DNA of 64,000 nucleotides, from contig NZ_KK211332.1 of NCBI RefSeq assembly GCF_000621705.1, positions 1 to 64,000 on the forward strand, given 5' to 3'. The position numbers and the translations under genes were made by a program. Below are positions 29,551-54,344 of the stretch, piece by piece (within the stretch, counting starts at the first letter, position 1; every line of letters starts with the position of its first letter). The DNA comes from Prolixibacter bellariivorans ATCC BAA-1284. GTDB taxonomy: Bacteria; Bacteroidota; Bacteroidia; Bacteroidales; Prolixibacteraceae. Below the pieces are notes generated by a model, which did no database searches, was not told the origin of the DNA, and saw only the letters and a program-made list of their open reading frames with translations.

Positions 29551-30864
29551 ATGAAATTCAGAATCGAAAACTGGAGTAAATATGGATTATTCTTCCTGGG
29601 AATAATCTCTTTGAGCCTTTTGAGCTGTTCTTCCAAAAAGAACAACAATTCATCTGGTCATGCAGTAAAACCAAGGGTCATTGTGAGTTCAGATATTGGT
29701 GGTACTGATCCGGATGATTTTCAATCCATGATTCATTTTCTGATGTATGCGGATAAATTTCAGGTGGATGGAATTATCGCTTCACCTTACGGCAAAGGTC
29801 GAAAAACAGATATTTTACATATCATCGATTTGTATGCAAAAGACTACCCTAAATTGAAAAAACATGGCGATTTTCCTTCCCCTAACCAATTGCGTTTGGT
29901 CGCGAAACAGGGAGCTACGGATGGAAATCCGGCCAAAGGATGGGGAGAACCTTCCGAAGGTTCAAAATGGATCATAAAACAAGCGAAATCAGATAATCCT
30001 CAACCTTTGTGGATACTTTGTTGGGGCGGACTGGACGATGTGGCACAGGCTCTGCATGATGCCCCGTCGATAGCCTCAAAAATACGGGTTTACTGGATTG
30101 GTGGACCTAATAAAAAATGGAGTGTAAGTCCTTACCAATACATCGCCCGAAATTTTCCCAATTTGTGGATGATCGAAAATAACTCGACCTATCGGGGGTG
30201 GATTATTGACAATAGTGCCAATCCTGACCTTAAACCCAAAGCGTTTTACGAAAAATACATAAAAGGGAAAGGAGCGCTCGGAAGTGATTTTGGCAATTAT
30301 TACGGTGGTTCAATAAAAATGGGTGACTCGCCCTCGGTTGCCTACCTGCTTAACGGAAATCCGGATAACCCGGCAGGGCAAAGTTGGGGAGGCAGTTTTA
30401 CAAAGCTTCCGTATAGTGCGTTTCGAAATTTCAACCAGAATACAACAACTACTGATACGGTTCCGACTTACAGCGTTGTGACCTGGACATTTGATTCGAA
30501 AGAAAATATCGCTGCCAATGAAAATCCGGAAATCTGGATGGAAATTGATGGACAGCGCATTAATGGATTTTACGCTGGCAATGGTGTTTTCAAGGTGCGT
30601 TTCGTACCCAAACGAATTGGCAACTGGAAATACACCGTGAATTGCTCTGTAAAAAGTTTACAGGGGCAAACCGGTGAATTCGTCAGTGCAAATCCGTGGC
30701 CGGGAGCAGAGAATCCAGATAACGCCAAACTAAACAACTGGTGGAGCGATCGAACAGATAAAGACCTGTACGTCGAACAATACCAGGGAACGGAAACAAT
30801 AGCCAAGTGGCGTAAGGATTTCCTTATGGACTGGGCAAAAAGATTCGAATGGATTGCTAACTAA
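29551..30864 (+). CDS. DUF1593 lipoprotein with DUF5060-like C-terminal domain, type B
   Basis: A 437-residue lipoprotein (lipobox SLLSC, Cys26). The nucleoside-hydrolase-like domain begins SSDIGGTDPDDFQSM, and LWILCWGGLDDVAQALHDAP is shared nearly word for word with the protein at 9320. The C-terminal third carries GFYAGNGVFKVRFVPKR and GNWKY, the DUF5060 pattern. It is the second gene of a plus-strand pair with GH105 and is followed by a strong terminator. Function is unknown; see the DUF1593 findings. Confidence 0.83.
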   Translation: MKFRIENWSKYGLFFLGIISLSLLSCSSKKNNNSSGHAVKPRVIVSSDIGGTDPDDFQSMIHFLMYADKFQVDGIIASPYGKGRKTDILHIIDLYAKDYPKLKKHGDFPSPNQLRLVAKQGATDGNPAKGWGEPSEGSKWIIKQAKSDNPQPLWILCWGGLDDVAQALHDAPSIASKIRVYWIGGPNKKWSVSPYQYIARNFPNLWMIENNSTYRGWIIDNSANPDLKPKAFYEKYIKGKGALGSDFGNYYGGSIKMGDSPSVAYLLNGNPDNPAGQSWGGSFTKLPYSAFRNFNQNTTTTDTVPTYSVVTWTFDSKENIAANENPEIWMEIDGQRINGFYAGNGVFKVRFVPKRIGNWKYTVNCSVKSLQGQTGEFVSANPWPGAENPDNAKLNNWWSDRTDKDLYVEQYQGTETIAKWRKDFLMDWAKRFEWIAN

Positions 30865-30997: not shown

Positions 30998-31345
30998 AAC
31001 TCTCACCATTTCTCCCATTCTCACCTTCTCCCCATCACCTTTTCTCCCTTTCTCCCAATCTCCATTTCTCACTTTCTCCCCCTCTCATCTTCTCCATTTC
31101 CCACGTGCCTGCAGGCCGTTGCCTAACCAGGTAAAAAAAGCCGGGAAGTCAACAACCTTCGGCACCGCACAAAGCCGGCCCGGCCTGTTCGTTCATGTCA
31201 CCTCATCATTGTCATTCCCTCACAGTCCGCACCCGCTTTCTTTTCCGTCGCATTCCCGCTTCGTTCAACCCCCGGCTATACATGAAGCTGCCATCCGTGT
31301 TAATCCGTGAAACGAATCCGTGTGCATCAGTGGACATAATTCGCG
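30998..31345. repeat. Long direct repeat, copy 1
   Basis: It begins with about 100 bp of nearly pure pyrimidine (TTTCTCCC-like units). From 31105 (GTGCCTGCAGGCCGTTGCC) a mixed-sequence part matches copy 2 closely to about 31230 and more loosely to the TCCGTG repeats near 31345. Not flanked by obvious target-site duplications. Confidence 0.7.
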
Positions 31346-31822: not shown

Positions 31823-32195
31823 GTTTCTCCCTTTCTCCCACTCTCATATTCTCCCATTCTCTTTTTTTGCCTTCGCCTTTCTCCCTTTCTCCCAATCTCC
31901 ATTTCTCACTTTCTCCCCCTCTCATCTTCTCCCGTTCTCCATTTCACCCAGTGCCTGCAGGCCGTTGCCCAACCTGGCAAAAAAAGGCCCGGAAGTCAAC
32001 AACCTTCGACACCGCACAAAGCCGGCCCGGCCTGTTCGTTCATGTCACCTCATCATTGTCATTCCCTCACATCCCGCACCCACTTTCTTTCCCAACTCAC
32101 ACACACTCCGTTCAACGAAAGCCTATACATGAGCCACCATCCGTGAAAATCAGTGAAATCAATCAGTGAATATCCGTGGATCATAATTCGTGTAA
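31823..32195. repeat. Long direct repeat, copy 2
   Basis: Second copy of the block. It has a pyrimidine tract at 31823-31949, then GTGCCTGCAGGCCGTTGCC from 31951 and a closely matching stretch to about 32070, then degenerate TCCGTG/AATTCGTG units. The pyrimidine strand could form triplex or single-stranded structures. Function unknown. Confidence 0.7.
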
Positions 32196-50798: not shown

Positions 50799-51536
50799 CT
50801 ATGCAACCGGTTCGTCGCCCGACGTGGTGTCGGTGGCATCACCTTCAGCCGGTGTTTCTTCTTCTTCCTCAGGTTGCGGCAGTGGCGTCGAAGAGCCATA
50901 AATGACATAATCGTTGTAATACGCTTCGTTGACTCCGTTCCAGTACCGTTTGCCAGCATCGCATATTTTGGAAATCATGGCATATAACTCTTTGCCTTTC
51001 TGAAGCCGCTTCAGACTAGCATCATCGCGTTGATCAACGACTTTCTTCACCTCGTCAATCGCGTTATCCAAATCATCACAGTCTGCATTCAGACCATCGA
51101 TAAATGCCTGCATACCATCGGCGGTGTAAACTATTTCACTGTATCGCTCGGTGGTTTTTACCAGTCCACGCGCGTAACGTACCAGTTCATCATTCTTCAG
51201 GGCCGATGTGGCAGTAAAACGAAAGCTCTGCAATTCCGGCGAACCGTCTCCAAATAACAGCCCGATACGCAGTTCGAACATATCAAGCGAACGCCGCAAT
51301 GCCCCGCGACTGTTCTTTTCAGCTGTCCGTTTCATTTTGAGTACTCCCTGCCAGTAATCGTCAGGCTCAATGTCCTTATTCTCCTGAACCTTGCTTGCCA
51401 ACTCGGTTTCGTATGCAGGAGAAAACCCCAGGGAGAGAAAAACCTCCTTATCCCGGGTGTATAGGTACACCATGTGGTCGCCACGCTGGGTTAATTCGGC
51501 ATAACCAAAAGAAAAATTTGTGTTTTCTGATGCCAT
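50799..51536 (-). CDS. Conserved hypothetical protein, 245 aa
   Basis: A soluble protein with no signal peptide, starting MASENTNFSFGYAELTQRGD. The middle is helical with many Arg/Lys (KMKRTAEKNSRGALRRSLDM) and a possible coiled coil (DCDDLDNAIDEVKKVVDQ). The last 25 residues are an acidic Glu/Thr/Asp tail (QPEEEEETPAEGD). It looks like an uncharacterised Bacteroidota family; I cannot name it. It is a single-gene unit with its own strong terminator, and the 21-bp inverted array lies 200 bp upstream of its start. In length and style it recalls the 251-aa protein at 33366, though I see no clear homology. Confidence 0.65.
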   Translation of the reverse strand: MASENTNFSFGYAELTQRGDHMVYLYTRDKEVFLSLGFSPAYETELASKVQENKDIEPDDYWQGVLKMKRTAEKNSRGALRRSLDMFELRIGLLFGDGSPELQSFRFTATSALKNDELVRYARGLVKTTERYSEIVYTADGMQAFIDGLNADCDDLDNAIDEVKKVVDQRDDASLKRLQKGKELYAMISKICDAGKRYWNGVNEAYYNDYVIYGSSTPLPQPEEEEETPAEGDATDTTSGDEPVA

Positions 51537-51744
51537 GTAGTCAGATTTTTAATGTTAGTTGTTAGTCAGCAATCCGTTGGTGAAGGATTGCATTGTCGTT
51601 CGTATTCGCGAAGAAACAACTGTTCTTCGGTATAGTACATCCCGAAAATAGATAAGAATCCTTTTCCATTATCTTTTCGGGGAAGAAGTATGGTTTGCGG
51701 GAACAATATCCCGTATTTTCGACTGTACAGCGCCTGAAGAGCAG
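51537..51744 (-). other. Promoter region of the 245-aa gene
   Basis: A non-coding 208 bp between the gene and the repeat array, presumably holding the promoter. No exact TAnnTTTG element could be assigned with confidence. Confidence 0.35.
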
Positions 51745-52202
51745 TCAGGACGAGTCCCGATTCCTTAAGGACAGCATGAATGCTCGTCAGGACAACTCAA
51801 CTGGTCGTAAGATTCCACCAAATGCTTGTCAGGACAGCTTGCCGGTCATTCAGGACAGCATGAAAATTCTTAAGGACAACTCGAAAGCTCTTAAGGACAG
51901 GTCGCCAGGCCGTCAGGATACCTCAAAAGGTCGTCAGGACAGGTCGCCAGCTCCTAAGATTCACTCTGCAGTTCTTCAGGACAACTGTAACGAAGAGCGA
52001 AAAGTAGTCCTTACGTGTTTTCAGGTTGTCCTGACAAGATTTTCATATGTCCTGAAAGGATTTTTACCTGTCCTGAACCAATTTCGTTTAGCCCTGAGGA
52101 CCTGTTTGCCGGCCCTGAAGCCATTGGCCTGTCTCCTGACGATAAACCGGGCAGTCCTTAACCTATCCGATGGTACGAAAATGCAATGGCAAGCACTCCT
52201 GA
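51745..52202. repeat. Inverted array of 21-bp repeats
   Basis: Twelve direct units begin with T(C/A)AGGAC or close variants at 51745, 51766, 51787, 51808, 51829, 51850, 51871, 51892, 51913, 51934, 51955 and 51976, exactly 21 bp apart. From 51993 the same unit continues in the opposite orientation, ending TCCTGA/TCCTTA/CCCTGA at 52008, 52029, 52050, 52071, 52092, 52113, 52134, 52155 and 52197 (the slot at 52176 is degenerate). Each unit is 7 conserved bases plus 14 variable ones. The centre is near 51994/51995. A 175-codon open frame through the array is a by-product of the 21-bp period. Confidence 0.85.
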
Positions 52203-52679
52203 CGGATAGAATACCCGGGTAAAAACCGTTTATCATAGCTAATACCGTAAAAGTTCCTCAAAGAACGCTTACGTTCGTTCCGGAATTGAAAAAAGAAAGC
52301 CTCCGGCCTCCGTGCTCCACTGTTCCAACCTTCCGCTAAAGTTTCCGTTTTCTGTCCTGGTAACGAATGAGTTTTTAACTTAAGTAAAAAATATGTTTTA
52401 TGCCAAAAATTTTGATGAATGGCTCGATTTCTTCCATGAACGGCCGGATCTGATATGCAAACGAAAATTATGATAATCGGAAATGGGGGTCTATAAAGGA
52501 ACTGAAAACCAAATTCAGAAAGTTTTTTATTATCTTGAAATGCCTTGAACGACCAACAAATGAAAACTGACCGAAGCAAATTAAAAATCCACTTGACAAG
52601 CTTAAGATATAAGATACCAAAGGTACACATAACACTCCCGTATGGGAAATATATGTTACTTTTAGTACACATATAAACT
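52203..52679. other. Intergenic, no gene seen
   Basis: About 480 bp between the repeat array and the first gene cassette. It is AT-rich and holds no recognisable gene, RNA or repeat. Confidence 0.45.
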
Positions 52680-52725
52680 AGTTGGCAGCAAGCTTAAAAG
52701 AAGCCAAAGCTTTATTAAAGAAACC

Positions 52726-53307
52726 ATGAAAAAAGAAGAAATTAACGAAATCTCAATTGATAAGTATGACGAAAAATCATGGGAACCGCTGATTACTTTT
52801 TTCTGGAATAGATATAATAAAAGATATTTCTTCCCTATCAAAATTCTTCAAGACCATGACGATTTTGAAATTAGGAATAATTGTGGTTTTCTAATCGCAA
52901 CTATTGATTGTATTTTAATTGAAACTTTAGAGCAGTATTACAGTGGACAAGACGAAAGCACGGGAAAAAATCACGACCCTTTTTACTCATTCTTCAAACG
53001 TTCCGAAGCTTTTAAAGGCGTAATTCAAAGTGACAAAGATGCTGGAAAATTTGCAGGTCTTGTAAGGAGCGGATTATTACACCAGTCAAAAACAAAGAAA
53101 GCTTCTGTAATAAACAAGAGAAAATCAACGCCAATTATTGGCTGGATAGACAGTAGTGATAAAAGTAAAGGATTTGAAATAAATAGAGACTTATTTCATT
53201 TGACTGTACATAATGAATTTAATAAGCTCATTGAGAATTTGAAAATTCAAGAGAATAAAGATTTGAGAGAAAAGTTTAAATCAAAAATTTTGACATTAAT
53301 TGAATAA
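52726..53307 (+). CDS. Hypothetical cassette protein
   Basis: A 193-residue soluble protein, MKKEEINEISIDKYDEKSWE, with ITFFWNRYNKRYFFPIKIL, then ETLEQYYSGQDESTGKNHDP and LVRSGLLHQSKTKKAS. No known family is recognised. It is the sole gene of the first cassette, bounded by complementary GTTGGCAGC/GCTGCCAAC edges. The codon use is AT-rich compared with the pectin genes, as in the other cassettes, consistent with acquisition. Confidence 0.6.
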   Translation: MKKEEINEISIDKYDEKSWEPLITFFWNRYNKRYFFPIKILQDHDDFEIRNNCGFLIATIDCILIETLEQYYSGQDESTGKNHDPFYSFFKRSEAFKGVIQSDKDAGKFAGLVRSGLLHQSKTKKASVINKRKSTPIIGWIDSSDKSKGFEINRDLFHLTVHNEFNKLIENLKIQENKDLREKFKSKILTLIE

Positions 53308-53313
53308 AAGCCA

Positions 53314-53452
53314 GCTGCCAACAAATTGTAAATTGCATTGCGGGGTTCGTGCGGTGTCGTTCGCTGGATTCTCGTTTCGCAGTTCCGTGTCCTTCGGACA
53401 GGAATGCTCTTCGAAATCCGCAACGACAACTTACAAGTGACCGTTGTGTGCC
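53314..53452 (+). repeat. attC-like palindrome 1
   Basis: The left arm (AACAAATTGTAAATTGCATTG) and the right arm around 53413-53440 are imperfect complements; the middle has TGTCC-TTC-GGACA. Its centre is nearly identical to palindrome 2. The outer edges are GCTGCCAAC (left) and GTTGTGTGCC (right). Confidence 0.65.
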
Positions 53453-53556
53453 ATTTTGGGTAGGGAAATTTTGCAATTTAAATTCTATAACAGAAAATAA
53501 TGAATCTGATAATTTTATAAGTAAAACAATGAATAAACTGTAAAAACTTAAACAAA

Positions 53557-54228
53557 ATGGAAACAAAAGTAATCCTTCATAATTCGGTAAGTTTAGATTG
53601 TTCTTACGTTGGTTTGACCCCAAATATGGAATTACATTATCAGATTGTGAGCGCCTATAAATCTGATGCATACATGGTTGGTTCCAATACTGCTAAAACA
53701 GGAATTTCAATGTTTGGAGAAACAACAAATGAAGAAAAAGCAGATTTTATAAAACCCAAAAAAGATGAAGCCCTGTCATATTGGATTATACCTGATACAA
53801 AAGGAATTATGAAAGGTTTTTTGCATTACTATCGAAGATTTGAGTTTTGCAAAGATGTAATAGTTTTGGTGTCGAGAGCAACACCTGTTGATTATTTAAA
53901 CTATATGAAAGAAAGGGAATATGAATATGTTATCGCAGGTGAAACTTTTGTTGATTATCAAAATGCCATAAAACAACTTGCAGAAAAATATTCGATACAG
54001 ACCATCTTGGTAGATACAGGTAGTAAGTTAGGAAATGTTTTACTAAATGATAACCTTGTAGATGAAATTAGTTTAATTGTTTCCCCGGAAATAGTTGGAA
54101 AATCTTCTGCAAATTTATTTGAAAATATAGAATCTAAAGTTGAGTTACAATGTACTCGCTGTGAACTGTTAAAAGATAGCTACAGTTGGCTAACTTATAA
54201 AATAAAAACGGCACACAACAAATTGTAA
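53557..54228 (+). CDS. RibD C-terminal/dihydrofolate reductase-like protein
   Basis: A 223-residue protein of the RibD_C/DHFR-like fold. It starts METKVILHNSVSLDCSYVGL, has SDAYMVGSNTAKTG, then TILVDTGSKLGNVLLNDNLV and DEISLIVSPEIVG. Members bind NADPH and reduce riboflavin or folate-type substrates; many are lone, uncharacterised reductases. Here it is the only gene of its cassette. The last 19 bases overlap the start of palindrome 2, as is usual for cassette genes. Real substrate unknown. Confidence 0.8.
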   Translation: METKVILHNSVSLDCSYVGLTPNMELHYQIVSAYKSDAYMVGSNTAKTGISMFGETTNEEKADFIKPKKDEALSYWIIPDTKGIMKGFLHYYRRFEFCKDVIVLVSRATPVDYLNYMKEREYEYVIAGETFVDYQNAIKQLAEKYSIQTILVDTGSKLGNVLLNDNLVDEISLIVSPEIVGKSSANLFENIESKVELQCTRCELLKDSYSWLTYKIKTAHNKL

Positions 54229-54344
54229 ATTGCATTGCGGGGTTCGTGCGGTGTCGTTCGCTTGATTCTCGTTTCGCAGTTCTGTCCTGTCGGACAGGAA
54301 CGCTCTCCGATTCCGCAACGACAACATGTACCAACCGTTAGCGG
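54210..54344 (+). repeat. attC-like palindrome 2
   Basis: It shares about 100 bp of close identity with palindrome 1 (TTGTAAATTGCATTGCGGGG, GGTGTCGTTCGCT, CGTTTCGCAGTTC). The tip is TGTCC-TGTC-GGACA. The edges are GGCACACAAC (left) and GTTAGCGG (right). Confidence 0.65.

Follow-up and report, generated by a model that had tools for sequence, protein, structure and literature searches.

Architecture of the array

The locus raises the question of what kind of element an intergenic stretch of about 466 bases can be when it is built from 22 imperfect repeats of 21 bases arranged as two opposed halves. The stretch lies in what is here called the window, the whole 64,000 nucleotides of Prolixibacter bellariivorans ATCC BAA-1284 contig NZ_KK211332.1 (positions 1 to 64,000) that were analysed. 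A first-pass annotation had described about 22 units of 21-bp period in two opposed arms, with C and A as alternatives at the second position of the unit, and this description was borne out. When the array was written in 21-bp rows, 12 left and 10 right units were seen, and the autocorrelation had its maxima at 21, 42 and 63 in both arms (0.45-0.56, compared with a mean of 0.25 over lags 5-69), with no 7-bp peak in the window array. The motif T[CA]AGGAC was exact in 9 of the 12 left units, one other (L9) having a single change and two reading TAAGATT; it was exact in 5 of the 10 right units, with one change in four and the motif absent from one (R9), so that three of the roughly 22 units are weak. 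The window contained 14 pairs of the form AGGAC-N16-AGGAC (up to one mismatch), 12 lying within the array, compared with a mean of 1.89 and a maximum of 6 in 100 shuffles. The two arms are one element, since a paralogue on contig C5 matches both of them without a gap (Table 1).

Table 1. Features at and around the array (window positions)
Feature	Positions	Strand	Remarks
Left neighbour gene, 245 aa	50799..51536	-	beside an array also in G001 (70%) and G002 (58%)
Whole element	51740..52205		extent shared, ungapped at 83%, with the C5 copy
Left arm	51745..51996	+	12 units of 21 bp, consensus TCAGGACAACTCGAAAGCTCG
Right arm	51993..52202	-	10 inverted units of 21 bp; ninth unit motif-less; 4-base overlap with last left unit
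Integrase leader, conserved	52258..52488	+	best matches L203 77.5%, L210 and L316 81%, L197 86%, L190 90%
26-codon frame MFYAKNFDEWLDFFHERPDLICKRKL in leader	52393..52473	+	found by eye; short FDERxDL heptad repeat, similar at sister loci
Putative integrase 3'-end remnant, 12 codons (KQIKNPLDKLKI, stop)	52574..52612	+	8/12 identical to the intact L203 integrase
attI-like site	52607..52690	+	sequence dispersed in the genus; cassette junction at GTT 52681; attI label putative
First cassette gene (probable), 193 aa	52726..53307	+	no Pfam match at E<=0.01
attC-like repeat after first cassette	53319..53388	+	97% identical copy at 54216-54285

The arms had also been said to stand in register, unit k facing unit k, and to allow the transcript to fold into one long interrupted hairpin. 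The register exists, as it must in any two opposed arrays of equal period, and it brings no extra complementarity: facing units were complementary at 9.2 of 21 positions compared with 9.9 over all left-right pairs (permutation P = 0.91), and at 4.0 of 14 compared with 4.7 in the spacer part. Tested for a mirror axis by itself, the window array gave no significant result (0.48, shuffles 0.44; 5 of 40 shuffles equally good); its arms consist of a short motif copied in opposite orientations and do not make a good palindrome. The hairpin fared better in one respect, the predicted RNA fold being more stable than shuffled sequence on both strands (z -5.1 on the + strand and -3.4 on the - strand; 0 of 100 shuffles as stable), and likewise in the related arrays C6 (z -5.3) and L197 (z -3.7; 20 shuffles each). 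Most predicted left-right pairs lay in motif register (60 of 66 on the + strand and 72 of 83 on the - strand), in registers shifted from the mirrored one by -4 and +2, or by -4 and -3, units; no pair on either strand fell in the mirrored register itself. Folding thus predicts that a hairpin is possible, though not the mirrored in-register one, which is unsupported given the facing units, the null axis test and the missing in-register pairs. The z-score mostly restates the inversion, because shuffling destroys the opposed motifs.

No A/T signal at 10.5 bp, of the kind expected from phased A-tract bending or wrapping, was found in any of 24 arms or arrays (P 0.41-0.99). A purine/pyrimidine signal at 10.5 bp, at a nominal and uncorrected P<0.05, was present in 8 of 12 arms of the window-array family, both window arms included (P 0.026 and 0.018), but in none of 12 other arrays.

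An open frame of 175 codons (51695-52222) covers the array, and the array might be read as the gene of a heptad-repeat protein. In its favour, one of the six frames is open through both the window and the C5 copies. These copies are identical at 389 of 466 bases (83%) with no gap, and the 77 changes between them are distributed 28/27/22 over the codon positions; it is this even spread that argues for an absence of coding constraint. Protein identity was 105/155 in the open frame, compared with 103-108 of 154-155 in the remaining five. The frame open in the C6 array is a different one from that of the window and C5, and the array open frame had no match in Pfam. A heptad-repeat protein gene was dismissed on these grounds as hardly credible, and the comparison with C5 upholds the earlier annotation of the array as non-coding: it appears to be intergenic and free of coding constraint.

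Copies, turnover and integron context

The genome of the window (G000) was searched with the unit pattern, allowing up to two mismatches. Raw hits were more numerous for the reversed control (29 and 50) than for the pattern itself (15 and 22), and since single weak hits therefore mean little, only runs read by eye were retained. Such runs were found at the window, on C5 and on C6, with less similar ones on C4, at C2:446 kb and on C10. Arrays of 21-bp period with differing units occupy the same two loci in G000 and in its sister genomes G001 and G002, namely an exonuclease locus (L021, L169 and L199) and the locus of the window (window, L197 and L210). At the exonuclease locus the arrays measured 499, 951 and 532 bp (16, 6 and 7 modulo 21), so that array length does differ between related genomes, here between species. 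These lengths are not exact multiples of 21 apart, which rules out turnover purely by exact whole units. In G003 the exonuclease locus contained neither an array nor a clean empty site.

Unit consensus differed by locus (TCAGGAC, TCAACAC, TCAAGCC), five-unit higher-order repeats were seen in the arrays of G001, and the adjacent left-arm units L7 and L8 were identical to each other in C5 and not in the window. A tail of about 45 bp is common to six loci (C5, C6, L169, L170, L198 and L199) and is missing from the window copy. In C6, L170 and L199 the tail and first 8 units correspond unit by unit, at 15-20 of 21 identical positions with one pair at 14. No shared leader flank was found among the array copies, and the mirrored ends of the C5 copy are explained by both being array units.

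Between the window and C5, changes were rarer in the motif (12/154) than in the spacer (66/308; p = 2e-4); the overlap of the last left unit with the first right one brings this count to 78 entries for 77 changes. The difference persisted without units L7-L9, which are overwritten in C5, and the motif-less R9 (9/126 compared with 56/252; p = 1.5e-4). In the tail-side arm of C6, L170 and L199 (8-10 units) it had the same direction and was not significant (p 0.1-0.8); in all three, another block, GAAG, is conserved roughly one turn away from GGA. The scarcity of motif changes between the window and C5 could reflect selection for a binding site.

Decayed genes and a cassette array had been noted beside the array, and the putative integrase remnant, the attI-like site and the attC-like repeats agree with this. 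The gene that the first-pass annotation placed some 200 bp downstream, and took for a lone gene of unknown function, is more readily taken for the first cassette in an integron that has decayed, because the leader, integrase remnant, attI-like site and attC-like repeats surround it. Most leader matches extend past 52488. The integrase remnant alone gave E 0.064 and is supported by DNA matches on both sides of it; most of the integrase gene is missing from the window. A fuller arrangement is present in G003, where a 21-bp array with another motif is followed by the leader, a 386-codon tyrosine recombinase and attI-like sequence; this recombinase scored above the cut-off of Pfam Phage_integrase and below those of the NCBIfam recombinase and integron-integrase models. 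In G002 the start of the integrase gene lies at a contig edge. The only homologues of the G003 integrase in the window genome were two distant ones (33% and 26% identical), which are taken to be Xer-type. As judged from its sequence, then, the window locus is probably a decayed integron platform which has lost its integrase and has the array upstream. Multiple attI-like copies, with no close integrase homologue found, point to several relict platforms in G000.

A query made of the leader end and attI-like site fetched 20 loci (L177-L196), of which L179 and L187 end too early and L181, L194 and L195 match a small part only. A 21-bp signal was obtained at 9 of the 20. Five of these were true arrays (L177, which is the window, L178, L184, L188 and L190), and the other four (L185, L189, L192 and L193) were a short leader repeat. 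L186 contains 22- and 23-bp arrays, and L203 supplies a sixth 21-bp array just beyond the flank. No 21-bp array lay within 1.5 kb of the second G003 integrase copy (L225) or of the other-genus homologues (L205-L207). Arrays and integron platforms co-occur at several loci, and neither requires the other. The attC-like repeats (at 53319 and 54216) do not lie within the 21-bp array, which excludes an integron cassette or attC array as its identity, and the window units do not, by eye, contain the integron core site (RYYYAAC), which had been considered as their origin.

Several minor observations were made around these platforms. The FDERxDL leader frame (52393-52473; also L185, L189, L192, L193 and L203) is itself a 21-bp repeat of few units, and in G003 (L310) the exonuclease frame has an FDERxDL-like stretch fused to its end. 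Sequence of the attI-like type (52607-52690) was covered by 12 of the 15 G000 matches of the leader/attI query. On G003:C1 a tyrosine recombinase with a 294-codon frame is present in 12 copies (e.g. 438796-439434 and 1866855-1867493), some about 2.5 kb apart, and is perhaps a separate mobile element.

Periods of other arrays

Repeat periods were surveyed in forty 20-kb stretches, 20 each from G000 and G001 and coding sequence included, over periods of 5-60 or, at a stricter setting, 10-65. The stricter scan found 13 arrays in G000, with periods of 21 (two), 22 (two), 23, 24, 29, 36, 41 and 42 (four) bp, and 14 in G001, with periods of 12, 21, 22 (two), 24, 41 (two), 42 (three), 57 and 65 (three) bp. 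Thus 17 of the 27 arrays in these stretches had a period of 21, 22, 41 or 42 bp; read out, the surveyed arrays of these four periods were mostly unrelated in sequence, L241 and L270 sharing one. Smaller samples from eight other genomes yielded 17 arrays: 21 and 41 bp in G003; 11 (four), 15 and 45 in G013; 42 in G005; 34 in G010; 14, 16, 35, 42 and 43 in G016; 42 in G038; 58 in G051; and none in G023. In G013, which belongs to another genus of the same family, three of the 11-bp arrays were read and found to be opposed (L281-L283), and L279 was opposed by the axis test. Their positions are L281 15110-15250, L282 12000-12200, L283 16800-16980 and L279 7990-8190, each an opposed array of one-turn units.

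In the mirror-axis test at 63 bp, 20 of 33 arrays scored above every one of 40 shuffles; the other 13 include the window. With TRF at fixed settings, the period came to a multiple of 21, give or take 1, in 11 of 15 sampled non-coding arrays (nominal p 4e-7; exceptions at 15, 24, 87 and 99), under a rule set after the data had been seen and with controls, at 2/4 and 2/5, taken from loci chosen for the 21-bp pattern with the pattern region masked. Because the rule is post hoc and the controls are too few, a preference for multiples of 21 special to this group is not established. Among 37 weaker arrays, 10.5 bp did not stand out in a Rayleigh-type test (0.31, below 9 or 9.5).

What surprised was that helical periods recur in unrelated arrays and that arms are opposed. 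It may be proposed, as a doubtful generalisation, that intergenic arrays of 11, 21/22 and 41/42 bp, unrelated in sequence and often mirrored, form one class across the bacterial family, in which conservation applies to the helical period instead of the sequence, the period being held by a protein binding one face or by a copying of units tied to the helical pitch. The same period classes in unrelated sequences, the opposed arms and the heavy turnover at conserved loci pose the question of whether the two-turn period is selected or made by copying, and the opposed form provides a naturally occurring long inverted repeat in which the match between the arms is partial. Intergenic 41-bp arrays were located at L264 7300-8190, L242 13452-13944, L271 17600-18040 and L276 2040-2330. 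The window itself also contains two pyrimidine-rich arrays of 8-bp units (TTTCTCCC), at 31010-31095 and 31824-31949, each followed by similar sequence; a + strand open frame (29551-30864) lies upstream of the first.

Possible nature of the array and known systems

With little better than even confidence, the array is judged to be a non-coding inverted minisatellite, fast-turning, dispersed in the genus and lying beside a decayed integron, any cellular effect being secondary. The array, its dispersal, the turnover of units between species, the lack of coding constraint and the integron-like setting are observed. On this view a degenerate two-turn (21-bp) unit was multiplied into two opposed arms and reached a small number of intergenic sites within the genus, its units being gained, lost and overwritten, presumably through replication slippage, unequal recombination and conversion between copies. 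The mirrored layout may have no dedicated function, and an effect on transcript ends, DNA structure or local promoter activity, of the kind reported for BrickBuilt (see below), would be incidental. Counting against a minisatellite are the rarity of motif changes between the window and C5, the lack of any indel in 466 bp despite 77 substitutions, the array lengths at the exonuclease locus, which do not differ by whole units, and a period which stays at 21 as the sequence turns over and is shared by unrelated families of the genus. Such constancy is not predicted by plain slippage, and strict 21-bp phase is what would be seen if the array served a dedicated DNA-binding protein, with a site every two turns on one face and arms whose polarities are opposed, like those of a bidirectional regulatory or chromosome-organising site. 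The conserved motif and the nominal 10.5-bp purine/pyrimidine signal of the family arms are consistent with this, and one-face binding is a possible candidate reading. Binding sites are nevertheless considered unlikely, as the consensus varies among loci, families with unrelated units share the period, the A/T signal is absent throughout, the motif/spacer difference is not significant at the three other loci, and the exonuclease locus of G003 does without an array.

A role at the RNA level, in which long imperfect hairpins stop or stabilise messages at transcript ends, is held to be quite improbable. The fold scores of the window array, C6 and L197, and the pairing in motif registers, point towards it, as does a near-perfect hairpin in the 11-bp array L281 of G013 (0.93 over 30 bp). 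Gene context speaks both ways. Of 13 classified sampled arrays, 6 lay in convergent, 7 in tandem and 0 in divergent gaps, against 43, 131 and 64 of the 238 background gaps (convergent p 0.02, divergent p 0.04), counted with a crude gene finder (ORFs of at least 90 codons) which left L256 and L264 unclassed and omitting L236, L243, L247, the 24- and 36-bp rows, the 21-bp row in the L246 gene and the window. The window array, however, sits in a divergent gap, as does the weak 23-bp array L243, and when these two were added the avoidance of divergent gaps was gone (2/15; p 0.37) and the convergent excess became marginal (p 0.048). Further points against an RNA element are the absence of mirrored-register pairing, facing units complementary no better than chance, a z-score that largely reflects the inversion, and no Rfam match at E<=1 in 51000-53600. 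There is very little likelihood that the array is a functional part of the integron platform, controlling for example the integrase promoter or recombination. Integrase or attI-like sequence does lie downstream of an array at the window locus and the exonuclease locus, at C2:100 kb (L190), in G003 (L203) and in G002 (L210 and L227), and families with unrelated units occupy the same place; yet only 5 of the 20 leader/attI loci had a true 21-bp array within 1.5 kb, with L203 as a sixth, the integrases at L225 and L205-L207 had none, similar arrays are found elsewhere, and the integrase is gone from the window locus.

As to known systems, the earlier statement that no named element has this form was too strong, BrickBuilt of Porphyromonas gingivalis being close. 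BrickBuilt is described as an intergenic 23-nt minisatellite inside a MITE with leader and tail, whose unit number varies between strains, for which stem-loops are predicted and which has promoter activity (PMC4596501). The same paper describes 22-, 23- and 41-nt repeats in P. gingivalis W83, together with PgRS/MITE464, and the sections consulted give no reason for the period of the 22-, 23- and 41-nt minisatellites (PMC4596501). By these descriptions the array resembles BrickBuilt in being an imperfect tandem repeat between genes, with a period close to two turns of the helix, unequal variability within the unit, a tail flank common to copies (here six loci, the window copy not among them), long predicted stem-loops and no sign of translation. 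Unit number differs at conserved loci in both, here between species and in BrickBuilt between strains. The array differs in its 21-bp unit, in having opposed arms where BrickBuilt has direct repeats, and in adjoining integron-like platforms. The leader of BrickBuilt and its 12-bp IS5-like terminal inverted repeats with target duplication, as given in that account, were none of them demonstrated in the array; dispersed copies, a feature of MITEs in general, are present. Period classes of 22 and 41 are shared with PgRS/MITE464 and the W83 repeats by description only (PMC4596501), the PgRS repeats being direct and of 41 nt. By analogy with what is described, the array is provisionally filed as a variant of BrickBuilt-like minisatellites, departing from them in two defining features, the 23-nt unit and the direct orientation.

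Among titles and abstracts of open-licence papers, no description of inverted 21-bp arrays was found. The REP/BIME elements of enterobacteria likewise place alternating or opposed units between genes, but those units are palindromic, of about 35-40 nt, and have no strict helical period. CRISPR arrays, in which near-identical repeats of about 21-48 nt alternate with unique spacers of comparable length, are excluded by the 7 conserved bases, the 14-base spacers and the inverted arms.

A pattern of three exact motifs, searched in all species genomes, gave at least 120 stretches, and 80 of them (L026-L105) were scanned for motif runs. There was no run of four or more in 31 of the 80, several had chains offset by 7 bp (heptamer arrays), and the opposed chains of L093 proved to be a heptamer array. 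Unit-by-unit reading covered nine; the 71 others scanned and 40 further stretches, all unread, may include inverted relatives. Some of the at least 120 stretches that matched T[CA]AGGAC are cyanobacterial loci (e.g. L027, L052, L085 and L096). The STRR heptamer arrays of filamentous cyanobacteria are likewise short repeat arrays, but with a period of seven bases, at which the window array has no peak. Opposed heptamer arrays of the TCAGGAC/TGAGCAC type were located at L093 4502-4770 and L088 680-1020 (Acidobacteria MAG).
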